A DNA stretch of 44,386 bases from contig CAUJEY010000253.1 of assembly GCA_963169325.1 (NCBI GenBank), positions 1 to 44,386 on the forward strand. The letters run 5' to 3'. Source of the DNA: Bacteroidota bacterium. GTDB taxonomy: Bacteria; Bacteroidota; Bacteroidia; Chitinophagales; Saprospiraceae. A program made the translations under genes and the position numbers. Shown in pieces: positions 31,744 through 40,106 of this stretch (the first letter of the stretch is position 1; the number at the start of each line of letters is the position of its first letter). The notes beneath the pieces are model-generated. The model was not told the origin of the DNA. It did not search any database and saw only the letters and a list, made by a program, of their open reading frames with translations.

Positions 31744-31901
31744 CCAAATTATTGGAGTGCCAATGGTTTGTTTGGCAGGATAACCGCTTTCAAAAACCTG
31801 ACTTTTCCAAAAACTTGGTAAACGTATTGGCTGGCAGGGTAATTATCTTTCGGATATATTTACTGCTCAAACTGTTTTATTCACGTTAACCTCCGCATCG
31901 T

Positions 31902-32105
31902 ATGGCAAAGAAAAAAATTACACTCACTGATCTCAAAGTCCAAAGTTTCGTCACCACGCTCGACGACGAGCAGATGAACCACGTTAAAGGGGGCATCTAC
32001 ATCGTACGAGGCCGCCGGTTTACGTATCGTACCCGCTGGACCTCCGTGGATACCCGCAGCGACGAAATCGAAATGGCCGACCCGATACACAACAAGCGGT
32101 TCTAA
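31902..32105 (+). CDS. Orphan RiPP precursor with class I lanthipeptide-type leader
   Basis: A 67-residue peptide. The leader KKKITLTDLKVQSFVTTLDD, then EQMNHVKGG with the double glycine at residues 30-31, matches the leader of Bacteroidota class I lanthipeptides (pinensin type; LNDLKVxSFVTSL and a GG cleavage site). The 36-residue core after GG is Arg-rich, has four Thr and two Ser, and has no Cys, so a lanthionine ring cannot form. No LanB, LanC, protease or transporter gene is in the window. Its stop overlaps the stop of the opposing 515-residue gene by 3 nt. It could be a precursor matured in trans, one processed by a different enzyme, or a peptide that has kept only the leader. Confidence 0.75.
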   Translation: MAKKKITLTDLKVQSFVTTLDDEQMNHVKGGIYIVRGRRFTYRTRWTSVDTRSDEIEMADPIHNKRF

Positions 32106-33649
32106 TCAGCGGTCAATGCGCGCTGACGCCATTTAGTTTGCACTGCTTCGGCAAAACTGCAACCACTGATTTTTCCTTCGAGCCAGGCTACCAAATCGAA
32201 GGTTTGCAACAAAGCCCGCGCATCGGGAAGGGTAGAAAGTTCGTTTAAATCCTCCTTCATCTTTTGGAATGCCCGTTGCTGGTCTCGCGCTGATGGCGCC
32301 CGCATCAGTTCAGACATGAAATGAAAAAACCGCCGCTCCAGATCGTAGAGGCGGTTTTTCTTTTGTAAAAACCGCGTTGCCGAGCGCAGAAGCGACTCAA
32401 GTAAAACACTGTTGCCCATTTCAAAATGGAGAATAAGCGACAGGATGCGGGCCAGGCTTTGCAGGTCTTCCCGTTCCACCGTGCGCGGCTGGTTGAGCCA
32501 TTGGTTGAGGTGATCGAGCGCACCGCTGAAATCGCCGCAACCGAAACAGATACAACAGTATTGAAAATAAAAGCTCGCGGTTTCGTAATCGTGCGGGTCG
32601 AATTGTCCGGCCTCTGCCTGGCAACGATCCATTTCCAGCCGGCCTTCTTCAAATGCGCCGGTGAAAATACACAGCACAAATTTGTTGGTATAGTACTGCC
32701 GGTGGATTTTTCGCCGGTCATCTTCGGTGATCGGCGTCAAAATCCGCAGCTTCTCCAATGTGGCCCGTACTTCCTCATATCGCCCCAACAGGCCGCTGGA
32801 AAGGATAAAATTGCTCAGCGCAGCAATATAATCGGCTAAGTTCTCCCGGAGAAAATGCGGTTGGGACTCCAGCAATTCAATCATTTTTTTCCCGGATTCA
32901 TAAAATTGCTCCGGTTCCAGCGCCGCGTAATAATACAGGTTGAGCGTACGGTAATACAGCACCCGCGCTTTGTACGACAGCGCTTTATCAGGGTCGCTCA
33001 GCAGTTCGTGTCGTACCAGGTTCTGCAAACGCGCCATACGTTCTTCGCCGCGATGGAGCGCTTCACGTTTAATAGTAGTGTACACCTGGAAAAAAAGTTT
33101 GCGGTATGCGGCATTGTTCCGCAACTGGTCCAGGGCGCGTGTTTCGGCAAATTGCAGCTGGTCGAATTGTTTGTGGAGAAAATCCACATCCATGCGGGTG
33201 TATGCAATGTGTTTTTCCCAACGAATGATTTCCAGTAAATGGGTAAAACATTCGTATTGCGTGGCAATTTTGGTCGCCTTATACAACAACTCCCGGCAAT
33301 CGTCATAAAATCCTCTCTTAAATAACACCGACACACTTTGCAACAGGTGGTTCAATTTGTACTCGATGGAGCTTTGTTCGTCGTAGGATTGCAGGCTTTT
33401 GAGCACCAGATCGTATAAATACGCTTTTAATTCGGAGTACTTCCGGCTTTCAACAGGCTGATTTTTGTAAATTTTGTTGCAACAGACCGTATCGTCGAAA
33501 GATTCCATGCCCGCCATCAGGTCGAACAACATCAGATATTTGCTGTCTCGTTCGGCTTTTCCACGTACAAAAAGGCGGAAATAGCGTTTTTCCGCCGGCG
33601 TAAGCGAGCGAATCAGGCGGTATAATTTCTCGGAAGGCGTTTTAGCCAT
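32102..33649 (-). CDS. Helical-repeat protein, unknown
   Basis: A 515-residue cytoplasmic protein with no signal peptide; family not recognised. It opens with TPSEKLYRLIRSLTPAEKRY followed by FRLFVRG, an N-terminal block that is frequent in Saprospiraceae-like proteins of unknown role. The rest is almost all alpha-helical with irregular helix pairs of about 35-40 residues (YSELKAYLYDLVLKSLQSYD, LLQSVSVLFKRGFYDDCREL, YIAALSNFILSSGLLGRYEE, FQYCCICFGCGDFSGALDHL), consistent with a TPR-like solenoid and therefore with protein binding. It converges on the RiPP precursor with overlapping stops and is divergent from the LytTR gene. A role in regulation or peptide sensing is speculation. Confidence 0.8.
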   Translation of the reverse strand: MAKTPSEKLYRLIRSLTPAEKRYFRLFVRGKAERDSKYLMLFDLMAGMESFDDTVCCNKIYKNQPVESRKYSELKAYLYDLVLKSLQSYDEQSSIEYKLNHLLQSVSVLFKRGFYDDCRELLYKATKIATQYECFTHLLEIIRWEKHIAYTRMDVDFLHKQFDQLQFAETRALDQLRNNAAYRKLFFQVYTTIKREALHRGEERMARLQNLVRHELLSDPDKALSYKARVLYYRTLNLYYYAALEPEQFYESGKKMIELLESQPHFLRENLADYIAALSNFILSSGLLGRYEEVRATLEKLRILTPITEDDRRKIHRQYYTNKFVLCIFTGAFEEGRLEMDRCQAEAGQFDPHDYETASFYFQYCCICFGCGDFSGALDHLNQWLNQPRTVEREDLQSLARILSLILHFEMGNSVLLESLLRSATRFLQKKNRLYDLERRFFHFMSELMRAPSARDQQRAFQKMKEDLNELSTLPDARALLQTFDLVAWLEGKISGCSFAEAVQTKWRQRALTAD

Positions 33650-33773
33650 GGCTTTTTACCGGCGCCGGAAGGGTTATTTTTTATATCCGGCCGCCGACAA
33701 AAGTGTCCCTTTTATGTCATTTAACCAAAAGAGAAAATCGGGCTTGAATCCTGACTTATGAACCAAACATGGA

Positions 33774-33829: not shown

Positions 33830-34300
33830 ATGATGAATGCCGTACCGTATCCCTCTGCCGCTGAATCGTCCGAACCCGTCCGGAGCGCCCGCTCTGTTGC
33901 GATAGCACCGGATTATTTTATCGCCCCGCCCTCGATCGAACGGGATTATACCCACACGATCGGTAAAGCCGGGAAGATCGTATTGCCCACGATGGAAGGT
34001 TTATGTTTCGAAAAAGTGAAACATATCGCTTACCTCGAAGCCAGTGGTAATTATACGGTATTGCACTTTCTGGACGGCCGGCAGATTCTGGTGTGCAAAA
34101 CCCTGCGCGAAGTGGAACATTTGCTCCCCGAACTCGCTTTCGTACGGATTCACCGCTCCCATACCATTCACCTGCGGCATATTAAAAAATATGTGCGCGG
34201 TAAAGGCGGTCATGTCGTACTGCAAAACAGCGTAACCCTCACCGTTTCTGCCGGTCAGAAAGATAACTTCCTCGATGCCTTAAAGCAGTATTTTAACTGA
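33830..34300 (+). CDS. LytTR-domain DNA-binding protein without receiver
   Basis: A 156-residue transcription regulator. After about 45 low-complexity residues comes a LytTR domain (about 50-155): GKIVLPTMEGLCFEKVKHIA, YLEASGNYTVLHFLDGR, LVCKTLREVEHLLPELAFVR, then the signature IHRSHTIHLRHIKKYVRGKG. There is no response-regulator receiver, so it is not a standard two-component partner; it may act constitutively or through an unseen ligand. The ATG at 33830 (or 33833) fits the promoter at 33774-33804. The neighbours are the helical-repeat protein (divergent) and, across a terminator, the acyl-CoA dehydrogenase. Confidence 0.9.
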   Translation: MMNAVPYPSAAESSEPVRSARSVAIAPDYFIAPPSIERDYTHTIGKAGKIVLPTMEGLCFEKVKHIAYLEASGNYTVLHFLDGRQILVCKTLREVEHLLPELAFVRIHRSHTIHLRHIKKYVRGKGGHVVLQNSVTLTVSAGQKDNFLDALKQYFN

Positions 34301-36340: not shown

Positions 36341-36517
36341 GGACAATTGAATGTATGGGCCGGCCACACTGATACCTGCACGACAATTTTGCAGAAAAAC
36401 AATAAGTACCCAACCTCAACGGTTATATTCGGCATGAAGTTTTGAGCATGCCCCTTTAATTGATTTCCATCCCGCCGCCGTATTACACTTATTTCTTGTG
36501 TTGACTCCCCCCGTCTA

Positions 36518-36552
36518 TATTCACCGGGTGACTCCAAGTCACTGGGTGAATA
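36518..36552. repeat. Inverted repeat upstream of adhesin-like gene
   Basis: TATTCACCGGGTGACT (36518-36533) and AGTCACTGGGTGAATA (36537-36552) pair at 14 of 16 positions, with CCA between. It lies 48-82 nt before the ATG at 36600, so it could be an operator or a leader hairpin. Confidence 0.65.
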
Positions 36553-36599
36553 TTCCATACCGACCATTTATTTCATTTTTATCCAATGTTAAAAACGTT

Positions 36600-39500
36600 A
36601 TGACACAATCATTACCCATTTCCAAATTGTTATTTTTCCACCTCTTTTTTCTTTTGAGCAGCGGGATGTATGCACAGCAAAACCCAACGGTTCAGCTTGC
36701 CGCGCCGGGGATGCGTATGCCGCTCGACCTACCTTCCGGCCAGACAACCGTGCAATTGTGCGGGCTGATCCCCGGAAAGAGCTATTCCGCCGCTGCTCTG
36801 AAATCCGTATTTGAACAGCCGGCGACGTTCGAACTTTCCCGACCCGGCTCCGCGGCCCTACCCGAACAACATACGCCCGCAGGGCGCGCGCGGAAAAATG
36901 AAATACGTTTCATCGCTTCCGGCGCCTGCGAAGACCTGATTGTTTCGGCCGTTACAACCCAGCAATCCACCGCCATGCCCATGTTCCTGTCGGTAGCCTG
37001 TGCGGACTGCCCACAAGAGAAAGAGGCGCCGGTAAAAGAGGCGCCGCGGGCCGACCTGGTGAATCTTTCCGTTACGCCGGCCGTGCCGGCCGAAAGTTTG
37101 ATCCGGAATACGCTTATTAGCGGAAATTGTTTTGAGGTAACCAACATTACATCGTCCGGGCCGGACAGCGCATTCGGCACTTTTACGAACGGAAGTGCCA
37201 CTATCGGCATTCAAAACGGGATCGTGATGTGCACCGGCAATGCGAGCATCCTTCCGGGCCCGAACGACGATGCAGCCGTTTCCGGCAATTTCGGCGGCAA
37301 TTTCGGCTATAATAACGTCCAGGACCCCGACCTGGAAAACCTGACCCCGGGCGAACAATGGGATGTGGTCAAACTCGAGTTTGATTTTACGCCGACGGCC
37401 AACATGGTGCAATTCGACTACGTTTTCGGTTCCGAGGAGTACTGCGAATACGCGGGGTTGTTTTTTAACGATGCATTCGGATTTTTTATCAGCGGCCCGG
37501 GTATTGTCGGCACGCAAAATCTGGCGCTGATTCCCAACACCAATACGCCTGTCACGATCAACAACGTCAATAATTTTACCAACGAACAATACTATGTGAA
37601 CAACAGCCAGACTTTGGAGGATTTTGCCTGTTTGTTTGAAGGCGCCGCCAACTTAGCCGATATTCAGCTGGACGGCTGGACCAAACCGTTTACAGCCACA
37701 GCCAACGTCATTCCTTGTGAAACCTACCATATTAAATTAGTGCTGGCGGACATTACCGATAGTCTCGTGGCTTCAGCCGTTTTCCTGCGCGCCAACTCCT
37801 TCGACGCCGGCGGTACCGCCAAAGCCGAAGTCGTGTATGCGGCTGGACAGTCGACGGCATTTGAAGATTGCCCGGTTTCCTATATCCGCTTCTCCCGCGA
37901 CAGCAGCGATCTGAATTTGCCGCTCGCCGTCAATTTTACCGTTTCCGGTAGCGCCACGGCCGGCGTGGACTATACCCCGCTGATCAGCCCGGTAGTCATC
38001 CCGGCCGGTCAGAATGAGGTGCTGGTGCCGGTGGTAGTTTTCGACGACCAAACGGCTGAAGGTCAGGAGAGTTTTACGCTGGCGATCGACAATGCCTGCT
38101 CCTGCGCACAGTCCGAAGTGGAATTTCTGATCAACGACAAACCGGCTATTCTAATTCAGGTTCCAAACGAAGATCAAAACCTGTGCGAAGGCCAGGCCGT
38201 TTTATTCACCGCCCAGGTCGGCGGCGGCGTACCGCCACTGTCCTATTTGTGGAATACCGGCGACACCACGGCTTCGGTGCTGTTAAACATGGAAGGCTTT
38301 TACACGCTTTCGGTCACGGATTTTTGCGGCAGCACGAGCGCTGATTCGGTGTACGTCAATATACTGCCCATACCGGTACTCAACGACACAATTTTGTTTT
38401 GCCCGGGCGATTCCGTTCAAATCGATGGCGTCGTTTATTTTGAATCCGGTACCGTGCTGGACACTCTGGCCGGCGCTAATGGCGCCTGCGATACGATCCT
38501 GACTTACGTGCTGAAGTTATTGCCCCAAACAAACCTGAACGATACGATCCAGTTTTGCTTAGGCGACACCATAGAAATTGCGGGCGGCATGTACACCGGC
38601 TCCGGTATAGTTGTGGACACCTTACCGGGAACCGGCGGCGGCTGCGACACGATCATTACTTATGTATTACAGGTGCAGGAGCCCCCGACCCGCCAGGAAA
38701 CGCTGCGCTTCTGTCCCGGCAGTTCTGTCACTATCGGCGGCACGGTGTACACCGGGCCGGGTACGGTAACCGACACTTTGCCTACCACCAACGGCACCTG
38801 CGATACGATTGTAACCTATACCCTTGAATTGCTGCCCTACCCTACCCGCGCTGAAACAATTTCGCTTTGCCCGGGCGCTACCGTCGCAATCGGCGGCAAC
38901 CTGTATACCGCGCCGGGTACCGCTGTGGACACCCTGCCGGGCCTCGGTGGCGGATGCGACACGATTGTTACGTACGCGCTCGAATTACTGCCCAACCCCA
39001 CCCGCGCCGAAACAATCGAATTCTGCCCTGGCGAAACCATTAATATCGGCGGCACGGCCTACAATCAGCCGGGAACGGTCGTCGACACGTTGACTGCGAG
39101 CATCGGCTGCGACACCATCGTCACCTACACGCTGGCCTTTCTGACGCCGGCGCCGTCCAACGTCAGTGTGATTTGCCCGGGCAATATCGAACTGAACGTC
39201 GGCGGACCCACTGCGGTAACCTACAACGCGCCTGCGGCAGCAAGCGACTGCACTTGCCCGGGGATTGCCCTTCAATTAACAGACGGCCTGTCGTCAGGCA
39301 GCACGTTCCCGGTAGGTTCCACAAAAGTGTGCTACCTGGCGACCGATAGTTGCGGCAACACGGCTTCCTGCTGTTTCACCGTGACTTTGTCAGAAACAAA
39401 ACCCTGCGATGTTAAAACCATCGGCTGTATCAAATACGAGCTGTTGAGCATTTCGCAAGATGCCAAATTTAACACTACGTACCGTATCCGCGTCACCAAC

Positions 39501-40106
39501 TCCTGCAATACCGAATTGCTGTACACGGCATTCGAATTGCCGGGCGGCGTGGTAGCAACCGATCCGGCCAACAACGCCACGTACACTGCGCCGAGCGGTC
39601 AGGCATACCTGGTACGCAATCCGAACTACTCGCCGTTTTATTCTATCCGGTATTCCTCCGTTGGAACGGGCATTTCCGGCGGAGCGGCGGATATTTTTGA
39701 GTACACCCTGCCGCCGCGTTCCTTTCCGAATTATATTCACGTTATCGCCAAAGTGGCTACCCAAACGTACTACGAGGCCTATTTGAATACGTTCTTCTGC
39801 CCGGTAGGCAAAACGCCTGTGGAAAACCGGAGTGCGGATGCTACAGCAAAACCTGCCAGTCTGCGCGTTTCTCCCAACCCAACGACAGGGACGTTTTTTG
39901 CCGATCTTTCCGACTGGCAGGGGGAAAAAGTCAGCCTCCAGGTGTTCGATAGCCGGGGAGCGCTGGTACAACGCCTGACCGTACAGGCAGAAAATGATTT
40001 ACAGCAAATTAACCTGCCGGATGGTTTGGCCGAAGGCCTGTATATCCTCGAAGTGCGCCCGGAAAACGGCGCGAAACAGGCGGTGCGGTTTGTCGTGAAA
40101 AATTAA
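36600..40106 (+). CDS. Choice-of-anchor L surface protein, T9SS type A
   Basis: A 1168-residue secreted protein. The start MTQSLPISKLLFFHLFFLLS gives a signal peptide ending GMYAQQ; an upstream ATG does not. Order: Ig-like N-terminal part (about 25-150); choice-of-anchor L domain (about 152-405, with GIQNGIVMCTGNAS, VKLEFDFTPTANMVQFDYVF, GSEEYCEYAG); Calx-beta-like domain (about 406-514, SATAGVDYTPLISPVVIPAG); PKD/Ig-like domain (about 515-591); five tandem 51-residue repeats (about 593-848), each with one Cys in CPG or CLG and one in CDTI; HYR domain (about 849-930, FPVGSTKVCYLATDSCGNTA); a Cys-containing module; T9SS type A domain (VSPNPTTGTFFADL). Likely a large adhesin; ligand unknown. 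Its stop overlaps the opposing gene by 4 nt. Confidence 0.92.
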   Translation: MTQSLPISKLLFFHLFFLLSSGMYAQQNPTVQLAAPGMRMPLDLPSGQTTVQLCGLIPGKSYSAAALKSVFEQPATFELSRPGSAALPEQHTPAGRARKNEIRFIASGACEDLIVSAVTTQQSTAMPMFLSVACADCPQEKEAPVKEAPRADLVNLSVTPAVPAESLIRNTLISGNCFEVTNITSSGPDSAFGTFTNGSATIGIQNGIVMCTGNASILPGPNDDAAVSGNFGGNFGYNNVQDPDLENLTPGEQWDVVKLEFDFTPTANMVQFDYVFGSEEYCEYAGLFFNDAFGFFISGPGIVGTQNLALIPNTNTPVTINNVNNFTNEQYYVNNSQTLEDFACLFEGAANLADIQLDGWTKPFTATANVIPCETYHIKLVLADITDSLVASAVFLRANSFDAGGTAKAEVVYAAGQSTAFEDCPVSYIRFSRDSSDLNLPLAVNFTVSGSATAGVDYTPLISPVVIPAGQNEVLVPVVVFDDQTAEGQESFTLAIDNACSCAQSEVEFLINDKPAILIQVPNEDQNLCEGQAVLFTAQVGGGVPPLSYLWNTGDTTASVLLNMEGFYTLSVTDFCGSTSADSVYVNILPIPVLNDTILFCPGDSVQIDGVVYFESGTVLDTLAGANGACDTILTYVLKLLPQTNLNDTIQFCLGDTIEIAGGMYTGSGIVVDTLPGTGGGCDTIITYVLQVQEPPTRQETLRFCPGSSVTIGGTVYTGPGTVTDTLPTTNGTCDTIVTYTLELLPYPTRAETISLCPGATVAIGGNLYTAPGTAVDTLPGLGGGCDTIVTYALELLPNPTRAETIEFCPGETINIGGTAYNQPGTVVDTLTASIGCDTIVTYTLAFLTPAPSNVSVICPGNIELNVGGPTAVTYNAPAAASDCTCPGIALQLTDGLSSGSTFPVGSTKVCYLATDSCGNTASCCFTVTLSETKPCDVKTIGCIKYELLSISQDAKFNTTYRIRVTNSCNTELLYTAFELPGGVVATDPANNATYTAPSGQAYLVRNPNYSPFYSIRYSSVGTGISGGAADIFEYTLPPRSFPNYIHVIAKVATQTYYEAYLNTFFCPVGKTPVENRSADATAKPASLRVSPNPTTGTFFADLSDWQGEKVSLQVFDSRGALVQRLTVQAENDLQQINLPDGLAEGLYILEVRPENGAKQAVRFVVKN
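38373..39146 (+). repeat. Five in-frame repeats of about 153 nt inside adhesin gene
   Basis: Each unit encodes the pattern TxxxCPGxxVxIGGxxY, then GTVxDTLPG and CDTIVTY, and ends in LELLP. Units 3-5 are the most alike, which points to recent tandem duplication. The two Cys per unit could form a disulfide. Confidence 0.85.

Follow-up and report, generated by a model that had tools for sequence, protein, structure and literature searches.

A conserved precursor gene with a pinensin-type leader

The window, by which we mean the whole stretch of 44,386 nucleotides analysed here (contig CAUJEY010000253.1 of the Saprospiraceae assembly GCA_963169325.1), carries a gene for a 67-residue peptide, recognised from the open reading frame call, a leader model and the sequences of relatives, together with two neighbouring genes and two copies of a short DNA element:

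31791..31816, + strand: upstream element CAAAAACCTGACTTTTCCAAAAACTT, found 5′ of all 30 distinct relatives
31902..32105, + strand: precursor peptide gene, 67 aa
31902-31994, + strand: leader segment of the precursor, residues 1-31, ending in KGG
31995-32060, + strand: conserved core segment, residues 32-53
32061-32102, + strand: variable tail segment, residues 54-67, followed by the stop
32102..33649, − strand: 515-aa protein, BT2802-related (NF058569), tail-to-tail behind the peptide gene
33744..33769, + strand: second element copy, between the 515-aa gene and the LytTR gene, matrix score 11.8
33830..34300, + strand: LytTR-domain DNA-binding protein (PF04397, 54.6 bits)

At 36498-40106 the window also encodes a 1202-aa secreted-type protein with tandem CPG..I.IGG..Y...GTV.DTL....CDTIVTY.L. 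segments.

The first-pass annotation had described the 67-aa frame as a RiPP precursor whose lanthipeptide-type leader and GG site precede a 36-residue, Arg-rich and Cys-free core, and this description was borne out. Residues 4-31 scored 49.5 bits against the NCBIfam model NF038180 (leader_pinensin; cut-off 24), with KGG ending at residue 31, and a recount of the 36 core residues gave no Cys, four Thr, two Ser and seven Arg. The same model returned nothing above its cut-off on 14 control genomes. Identity as an NF038153 leader (20.3 bits; cut-off 22) or an rSAM-type leader (TIGR04149, 18.2 bits; cut-off 25) was dropped because both scores were below the cut-offs, and a Pfam search with the 67-aa peptide gave no match. 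Further precursors sharing the leader had also been envisaged, but the source genome (8.07 Mb, 349 contigs; completeness 96.7%, contamination 1.9%) held no second NF038180 match above the cut-off, making the gene single-copy there.

We searched a panel of 100 genomes, comprising the source genome, 41 congeners and 58 genomes from outside the genus, and recovered whole-peptide matches at E ≤ 0.01 in 37: the source genome, 33 of the 41 congeners (counting a mere fragment at a contig end in G010), and G052, G057 and G070. The leader model alone recovered 31 of the 33 positive congeners, missing G005 and G010. Across 30 distinct peptides, invariant residues were found both in the leader (M1, K3, L8, T18, L20, K29, G30 and G31) and in the core (G37, Y42, R45, W46, T47, D50 and R52), the latter giving the motif G....Y..RWT..D.R, and T47 was the sole core Ser or Thr kept in all 30. 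Cys was missing from the cores of 29 of the 30 distinct relatives, L031 being the exception. Outside the genus, the G052 peptide retained KWT within a related, Cys-free core, and that of G057 retained the leader and GWT in an otherwise different core, also without Cys. G070 is of the ordinary kind, with Cys-rich cores after a pinensin-type leader in a genome that carries both LanB and LanC.

Over 435 pairs, pN/pS was 0.33 in the leader, 0.41 in core residues 32-53 and 0.88 in tail residues 54-67, values obtained with synonymous sites close to saturation. In the close pair L023/L024 the core was very constrained (0.02 against 0.46 for synonymous change). The tail of this pair gave 0.03 against 0.31, and because tail changes are fewer than synonymous ones in some close pairs, the tail evolves fast but is not demonstrably neutral. 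The peptide C-terminus is variable, with 19 different last residue pairs among the 30 peptides. The relatives in 33 of 41 congeners, the invariant core residues and the pN/pS values together show that the 67-aa ORF is a real gene and rule out a chance ORF; the conservation of the core among relatives, which the annotation had named as a check, was thus found across residues 32-53, with seven positions invariant in 30 of 30 peptides.

Two constant neighbours and a recurring DNA element

In all 24 loci compared (23 and the window), a homologue of the 515-aa protein is encoded tail-to-tail with the peptide gene, and in all 22 that are long enough (17 found by clustering and five further ones) a LytTR gene follows beyond it on the strand of the peptide. 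Only these two genes are constantly linked to the peptide across the 24 loci; the other flanking genes vary, recX lying directly 5′ of the peptide in nine. Complete homologues of the 515-aa protein measure 512-532 aa, those of L035 and L048 are truncated by a contig end, and the frames in L056 and L055 are 474 and 571 aa. Within the genus, the peptide and a 515-aa ortholog (>400 bits) were both present in 33 of 41 congeners and both absent from 8. Outside the genus, G042, G050, G052, G056 and G057 also encode orthologs above 400 bits, yet the peptide occurs in just two of them, G052 and G057, so the 515-aa protein does not need it. The family is expanded in the order, with at least 15 matches in one genome.

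Against NF058569 (BT2802/RusR family) the 515-aa protein scored 157.6 bits over residues 3-501, far under the cut-off of 550 that marks curated membership, and no solved relative was found by sequence at E up to 1. RusR is presumably BT2802 itself. In excerpts of PMC12596196, which deal with the ribose regulon of RusR, the name BT2802 does not occur, and none of the matches listed in our literature search appeared to concern the BT2802 protein. The longest ORF of the LytTR gene starts at 33758, inside the second element copy; since most relatives begin with an M(L/M)NA-like sequence at 33830 or 33833 and the element overlaps the 33758 start, the gene likely starts at one of these two positions. 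Because no Pfam sensor domain was recognised in it, the LytTR protein looks more like a controller of the peptide gene than a receptor for the peptide.

The recurring element, with the consensus-like sequence AA(A/T)CCTGA(C/T)TTTT, precedes every one of the 30 distinct peptide genes, at −97 to −122 in 28 of them and at about −200 and −157 in L017 and L029. Its inner 18-base pattern is matched in the window without a mismatch, where shuffled sequences would be expected to yield 0.03 matches at two or fewer mismatches. A position weight matrix built from 24 distinct sites, for which 300 random sequences gave a maximum of 10.2 and a 95% mark of 2.1, detected another copy in the gap between the 515-aa and LytTR genes in all 22 loci; 21 of these exceeded the best random sequence, and L039 (7.0) exceeded the 95% mark only. 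In G052 the element stands 5′ of the peptide though LytTR sits on a separate contig, and three sites occur in G056, where LytTR and the 515-aa protein are present without the peptide. The element is rare, with seven sites in the source genome at one mismatch or fewer against one for the reversed pattern. It was present in 24 of 27 genomes searched, the others being peptide-negative G002 and G013 and peptide-positive G035, which has variant sites.

Away from the peptide island we surveyed 36 sites in 35 neighbourhoods, a part of all those found. In 10 neighbourhoods, from 10 genomes, the element lies 5′ of one orthologous secreted-type protein with a GWxTD domain, which in the source genome scores 43.6 bits against TIGR04514 (cut-off 28) and has its element at L207:1605-1623 (contig C318). 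Other genes whose starts by eye resemble signal peptides follow the element in 8 of the 35 neighbourhoods, while 13 of the 36 sites fall within predicted ORFs, including one that also precedes a GWxTD gene by 141 bases. We infer that the LytTR protein binds the element, and the GWxTD and other secreted-type proteins that carry it may form a surface-protein regulon. The annotation had proposed that the peptide might work with the adjacent LytTR regulator in signalling; an association is supported by the constant linkage and the shared upstream element, and peptide signalling is a candidate role only.

Candidate modification and export genes elsewhere in the genome

We saw no modification-enzyme or exporter gene linked to the peptide in the peptide neighbourhoods, so the earlier statement that none lies nearby holds for the neighbourhood, but not for the genome. 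The source genome encodes a glutamylation-type protein, LanB-N, on contig C203 (850-aa frame; PF04738, 57.9 bits, cut-off 28) and an elimination-type protein of 276 aa, LanB-C, on contig C230 (PF14028, 139.7 bits, cut-off 24.4; 95.5 bits on TIGR03891, over the cut-off). It also has two copies of a C39 exporter, one with the catalytic Cys motif QLDASDCG. The second C39-type ABC transporter, on contig C50 (L123), has no N-terminal catalytic Cys motif. LanC (PF05147) gave no match at E ≤ 0.001 in this 96.7% complete genome. The genome search that the annotation had put forward for LanB, LanC and C39 proteins thus turned up a LanB split into two proteins and a C39 exporter, while LanC went undetected, and the label 'orphan' fits the precursor locally but not genome-wide: the orphan appearance arises because the genes of its candidate enzymes are in other places.

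In the source genome the peptide, LanB-N, LanB-C and the exporter are on four different contigs. Broken assemblies do not account for this dispersal: in G007, an assembly of 9 contigs, a single 3.67-Mb contig carries all four at least 90 kb apart, with the exporter at about 1.11 Mb, LanB-C at 1.43, LanB-N at 1.52 and the peptide at 3.05; in neither genome do precursor, enzymes and exporter form a single cluster. Around 18 LanB-N loci, with neighbours named by eye, parA- and parB-like genes occur in 7-8 and a porin-like gene in 12. Besides the dispersed system, G005 has a conventional-looking, lanthipeptide-like cluster on contig C10 (L092) that comprises a C39 exporter, one full-length LanB and LanC in two copies.

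Using a profile of 16 LanB-N sequences, we found 6ec7 (1.5e-34) and 9jhq (1.2e-19) as the best solved relatives, followed by 9g04 (8e-11) and then MibB and NisB (about 1e-4). The nearest are annotated as a lantibiotic dehydratase and, for 9jhq, a goadsporin biosynthetic protein; we take 6ec7 to be TbtB and 9jhq to be GodF. NisB Y80 corresponds to LanB-N Y189, kept in 15 of 16 sequences, and NisB R83 to R192, kept in all 16; R13 near the LanB-N N-terminus is invariant, NisB R14 falling outside the aligned stretch. A profile of 14 LanB-C sequences matched the elimination domain of MibB at 1.6e-7 and that of NisB at about 1e-6. All 14 have a His that fits the IIHxxNNRL-type motif of NisB around H961, in a part of the alignment that scores weakly. 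According to an excerpt of PMC4341554, the NisB changes Y80F and H961A each abolish dehydration.

All 37 genus members searched, the source genome included, have a C39 family match whether or not they have the peptide, G028 a weaker one only. With KGG invariant in 30 of 30 peptides and an exporter bearing QLDASDCG, processing after GG is predicted. In a LanC search that covered 60 genomes and left out G037-G060, LanC was absent from 22 of the 29 positive congeners searched and present in seven.

Co-regulation of the enzymes through the element of the peptide was considered and rejected, as no convincing copy was found upstream of LanB-N, LanB-C or C39 genes. The scan took 15 of the 18 LanB-N and 13 of the 15 LanB-C loci retrieved. 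Upstream of the 15 LanB-N genes the best score was 6.6, with two (6.6 and 3.4) above the 95% mark and none above the random maximum. The best score for the 13 LanB-C genes was 3.0, with two again above the 95% mark (3.0 and, in the source genome, 2.7, both on the reverse strand) and none above the maximum, and six C39 genes scored at best −1.5, none above the 95% mark.

LanB-N tracks the peptide across genomes

LanB-N was present in 41 of the 100 genomes, namely the source genome, 37 of 41 congeners, G052, G057 and G070. Treating genomes as unrelated and complete, without correction for kinship or incomplete assemblies, Fisher tests gave 7e-4 for LanB-N within the genus (33 of 33 peptide-positive congeners against four of eight negative ones, G004, G015, G040 and, as a partial gene, G036), 3e-5 outside it (three of three leader-positive genomes against 0 of 55 negative), 0.019 for LanB-C in congeners (32 of 33 against five of eight; 37 of 41 overall), and 0.018 for LanB-C in other genera of the family (two of two against one of 17). 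As both LanB-N and LanB-C occur in some peptide-negative congeners, they may have other substrates. LanB-C persists in G002, G013 and G001 (L165, L166 and L168), congeners where LanB-N and the peptide are missing, and so may have another role.

A linear peptide that may be dehydrated in trans

The reading that we favour, with a probability of about one half, is that the gene encodes a linear RiPP that is dehydrated in trans by the split LanB, left uncyclised, exported by the C39 transporter and held under LytTR control. The pinensin-type leader would recruit a split class I dehydratase whose two genes are far apart, and LanB-N and LanB-C together would convert at least one Thr or Ser to dehydrobutyrine or dehydroalanine, T47 beside W46 being the first candidate. 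No lanthionine ring would be expected to form on the core, since Cys is absent from it and LanC was not found in the genome; on the same grounds we ruled out a true lanthipeptide. The C39 ABC exporter would cleave after GG, and the dehydrated product that it releases, linear and rich in Arg, would be no longer than 36 aa. The LytTR protein would control its own promoter as well as the peptide gene and the genes of some secreted proteins. Because that control would be shared with secreted proteins, a part in a cell-surface or communication programme is more likely for the product than one in killing. The earlier proposal of dehydration only, or of an enzyme acting in trans, agrees with the LanB pair, the C39 exporter, the lack of LanC and the co-occurrence of LanB-N with the peptide, while the modification itself is something we infer. 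Our more tentative extension is a cluster-free, class I-type pathway that has dropped ring chemistry and whose linear product is electrophilic through its dehydrobutyrine; conserved and secreted, this peptide would act as a signal or modify the surface, and LytTR would control it together with surface proteins. The LanC genes of seven of 29 positive congeners point against a dehydrated linear product, as does the G057 peptide, most of whose core differs behind the shared leader.

Since the peptide and the enzymes show no visible regulatory link and both enzyme halves occur in some peptide-negative genomes, the peptide may be unmodified or the LanB proteins may act on other substrates. The corresponding alternative, in which the GG leader serves export without chemistry, as in Gram-positive double-glycine pheromones, and the LanB halves work elsewhere, would explain why they are neither physically nor regulatorily tied to the peptide, why LanB-N and LanB-C are found in four and five of the eight peptide-negative congeners, and why C39 matches run through all 37 genus members. 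We consider it unlikely, because the leader is specifically of the lanthipeptide type, LanB-N accompanies all 33 positive congeners and, outside the genus, exactly the three leader-positive genomes of 58, the source genome offers no other NF038180 match above the cut-off, and T47 is invariant. If instead the peptide is dehydrated, a further step in trans could follow, be it a different cyclisation, the addition of a thiol or attachment to a surface protein. The LanC of some congeners and the element shared 5′ of GWxTD and other secreted-type proteins fit such a step, which we rate as improbable; the 22 positive congeners without LanC fit the linear product that we favour.

LanB-N might also be a PEARL. 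Excerpts of PMC11962472 distinguish LanB pairs, made up of glutamylation and elimination proteins, from PEARLs, which are LanB-like and typically without an elimination domain, and the LanB-N gene does lie apart from any gene for an elimination protein. A separate elimination-type protein is nonetheless present, which favours a LanB pair; the closest solved relatives are annotated as a lantibiotic dehydratase and a goadsporin biosynthetic protein, and the C-terminus of the peptide is variable, so that we hold a PEARL to be improbable too. The ATP-binding Glu-x-Arg expected of a PEARL was not spotted by eye near the LanB-N C-terminus in A2, inspected without an aligned PEARL sequence. A narrow bacteriocin that lost its rings would recall the pinensins, antifungal lantibiotics according to a title cited in PMC7268733, but the core has been kept throughout the genus instead of diversifying, and the only constantly linked genes in 24 loci encode the 515-aa protein and LytTR; this origin seems very improbable.

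RiPP mining seeks clusters, and the candidate enzymes of this precursor stand elsewhere; phyletic co-occurrence pointed to them although the precursor appeared to be an orphan. If dehydration without cyclisation proves true, lantibiotic enzymes would serve a conserved function in Saprospiraceae, for which residue T47, one DNA element and one regulator offer testable handles. A literature search for Saprospiraceae together with lanthipeptide returned no paper, and among the matches listed, seen as titles and abstract starts, none described this dispersed system.

Comparison with known systems

The peptide shares its leader family (NF038180) with pinensins and other pinensin-leader class I lanthipeptides, and excerpts of PMC7268733 describe GG leaders, C39 proteases and split LanB for pinensin and Bacteroidota class I clusters. 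Unlike the pinensins, the system described here has a Cys-free core conserved within a genus, a single precursor and unclustered genes, in a genome that yielded no LanC. Separate glutamylation and elimination proteins, as found here, also characterise the split LanB of thiopeptide and goadsporin pathways (TbtB, GodF; LanB_B in excerpts of PMC11962472). In our case, however, the two halves are encoded at a distance, both from one another and from the precursor.

Prochlorosin-type precursors can likewise be unlinked from their modifying enzyme. They are modified by one promiscuous enzyme, as an excerpt of PMC10783134 states. An enzyme acting in trans would thus be common to both systems, whereas here there would be one precursor, a split class I enzyme and no ring. 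LytTR-controlled peptide systems are also known from Gram-positives. Although the constantly linked genes here include no histidine kinase or membrane protein, the locus resembles those systems in having a LytTR gene near a GG-leader peptide, with the same element at both promoters.
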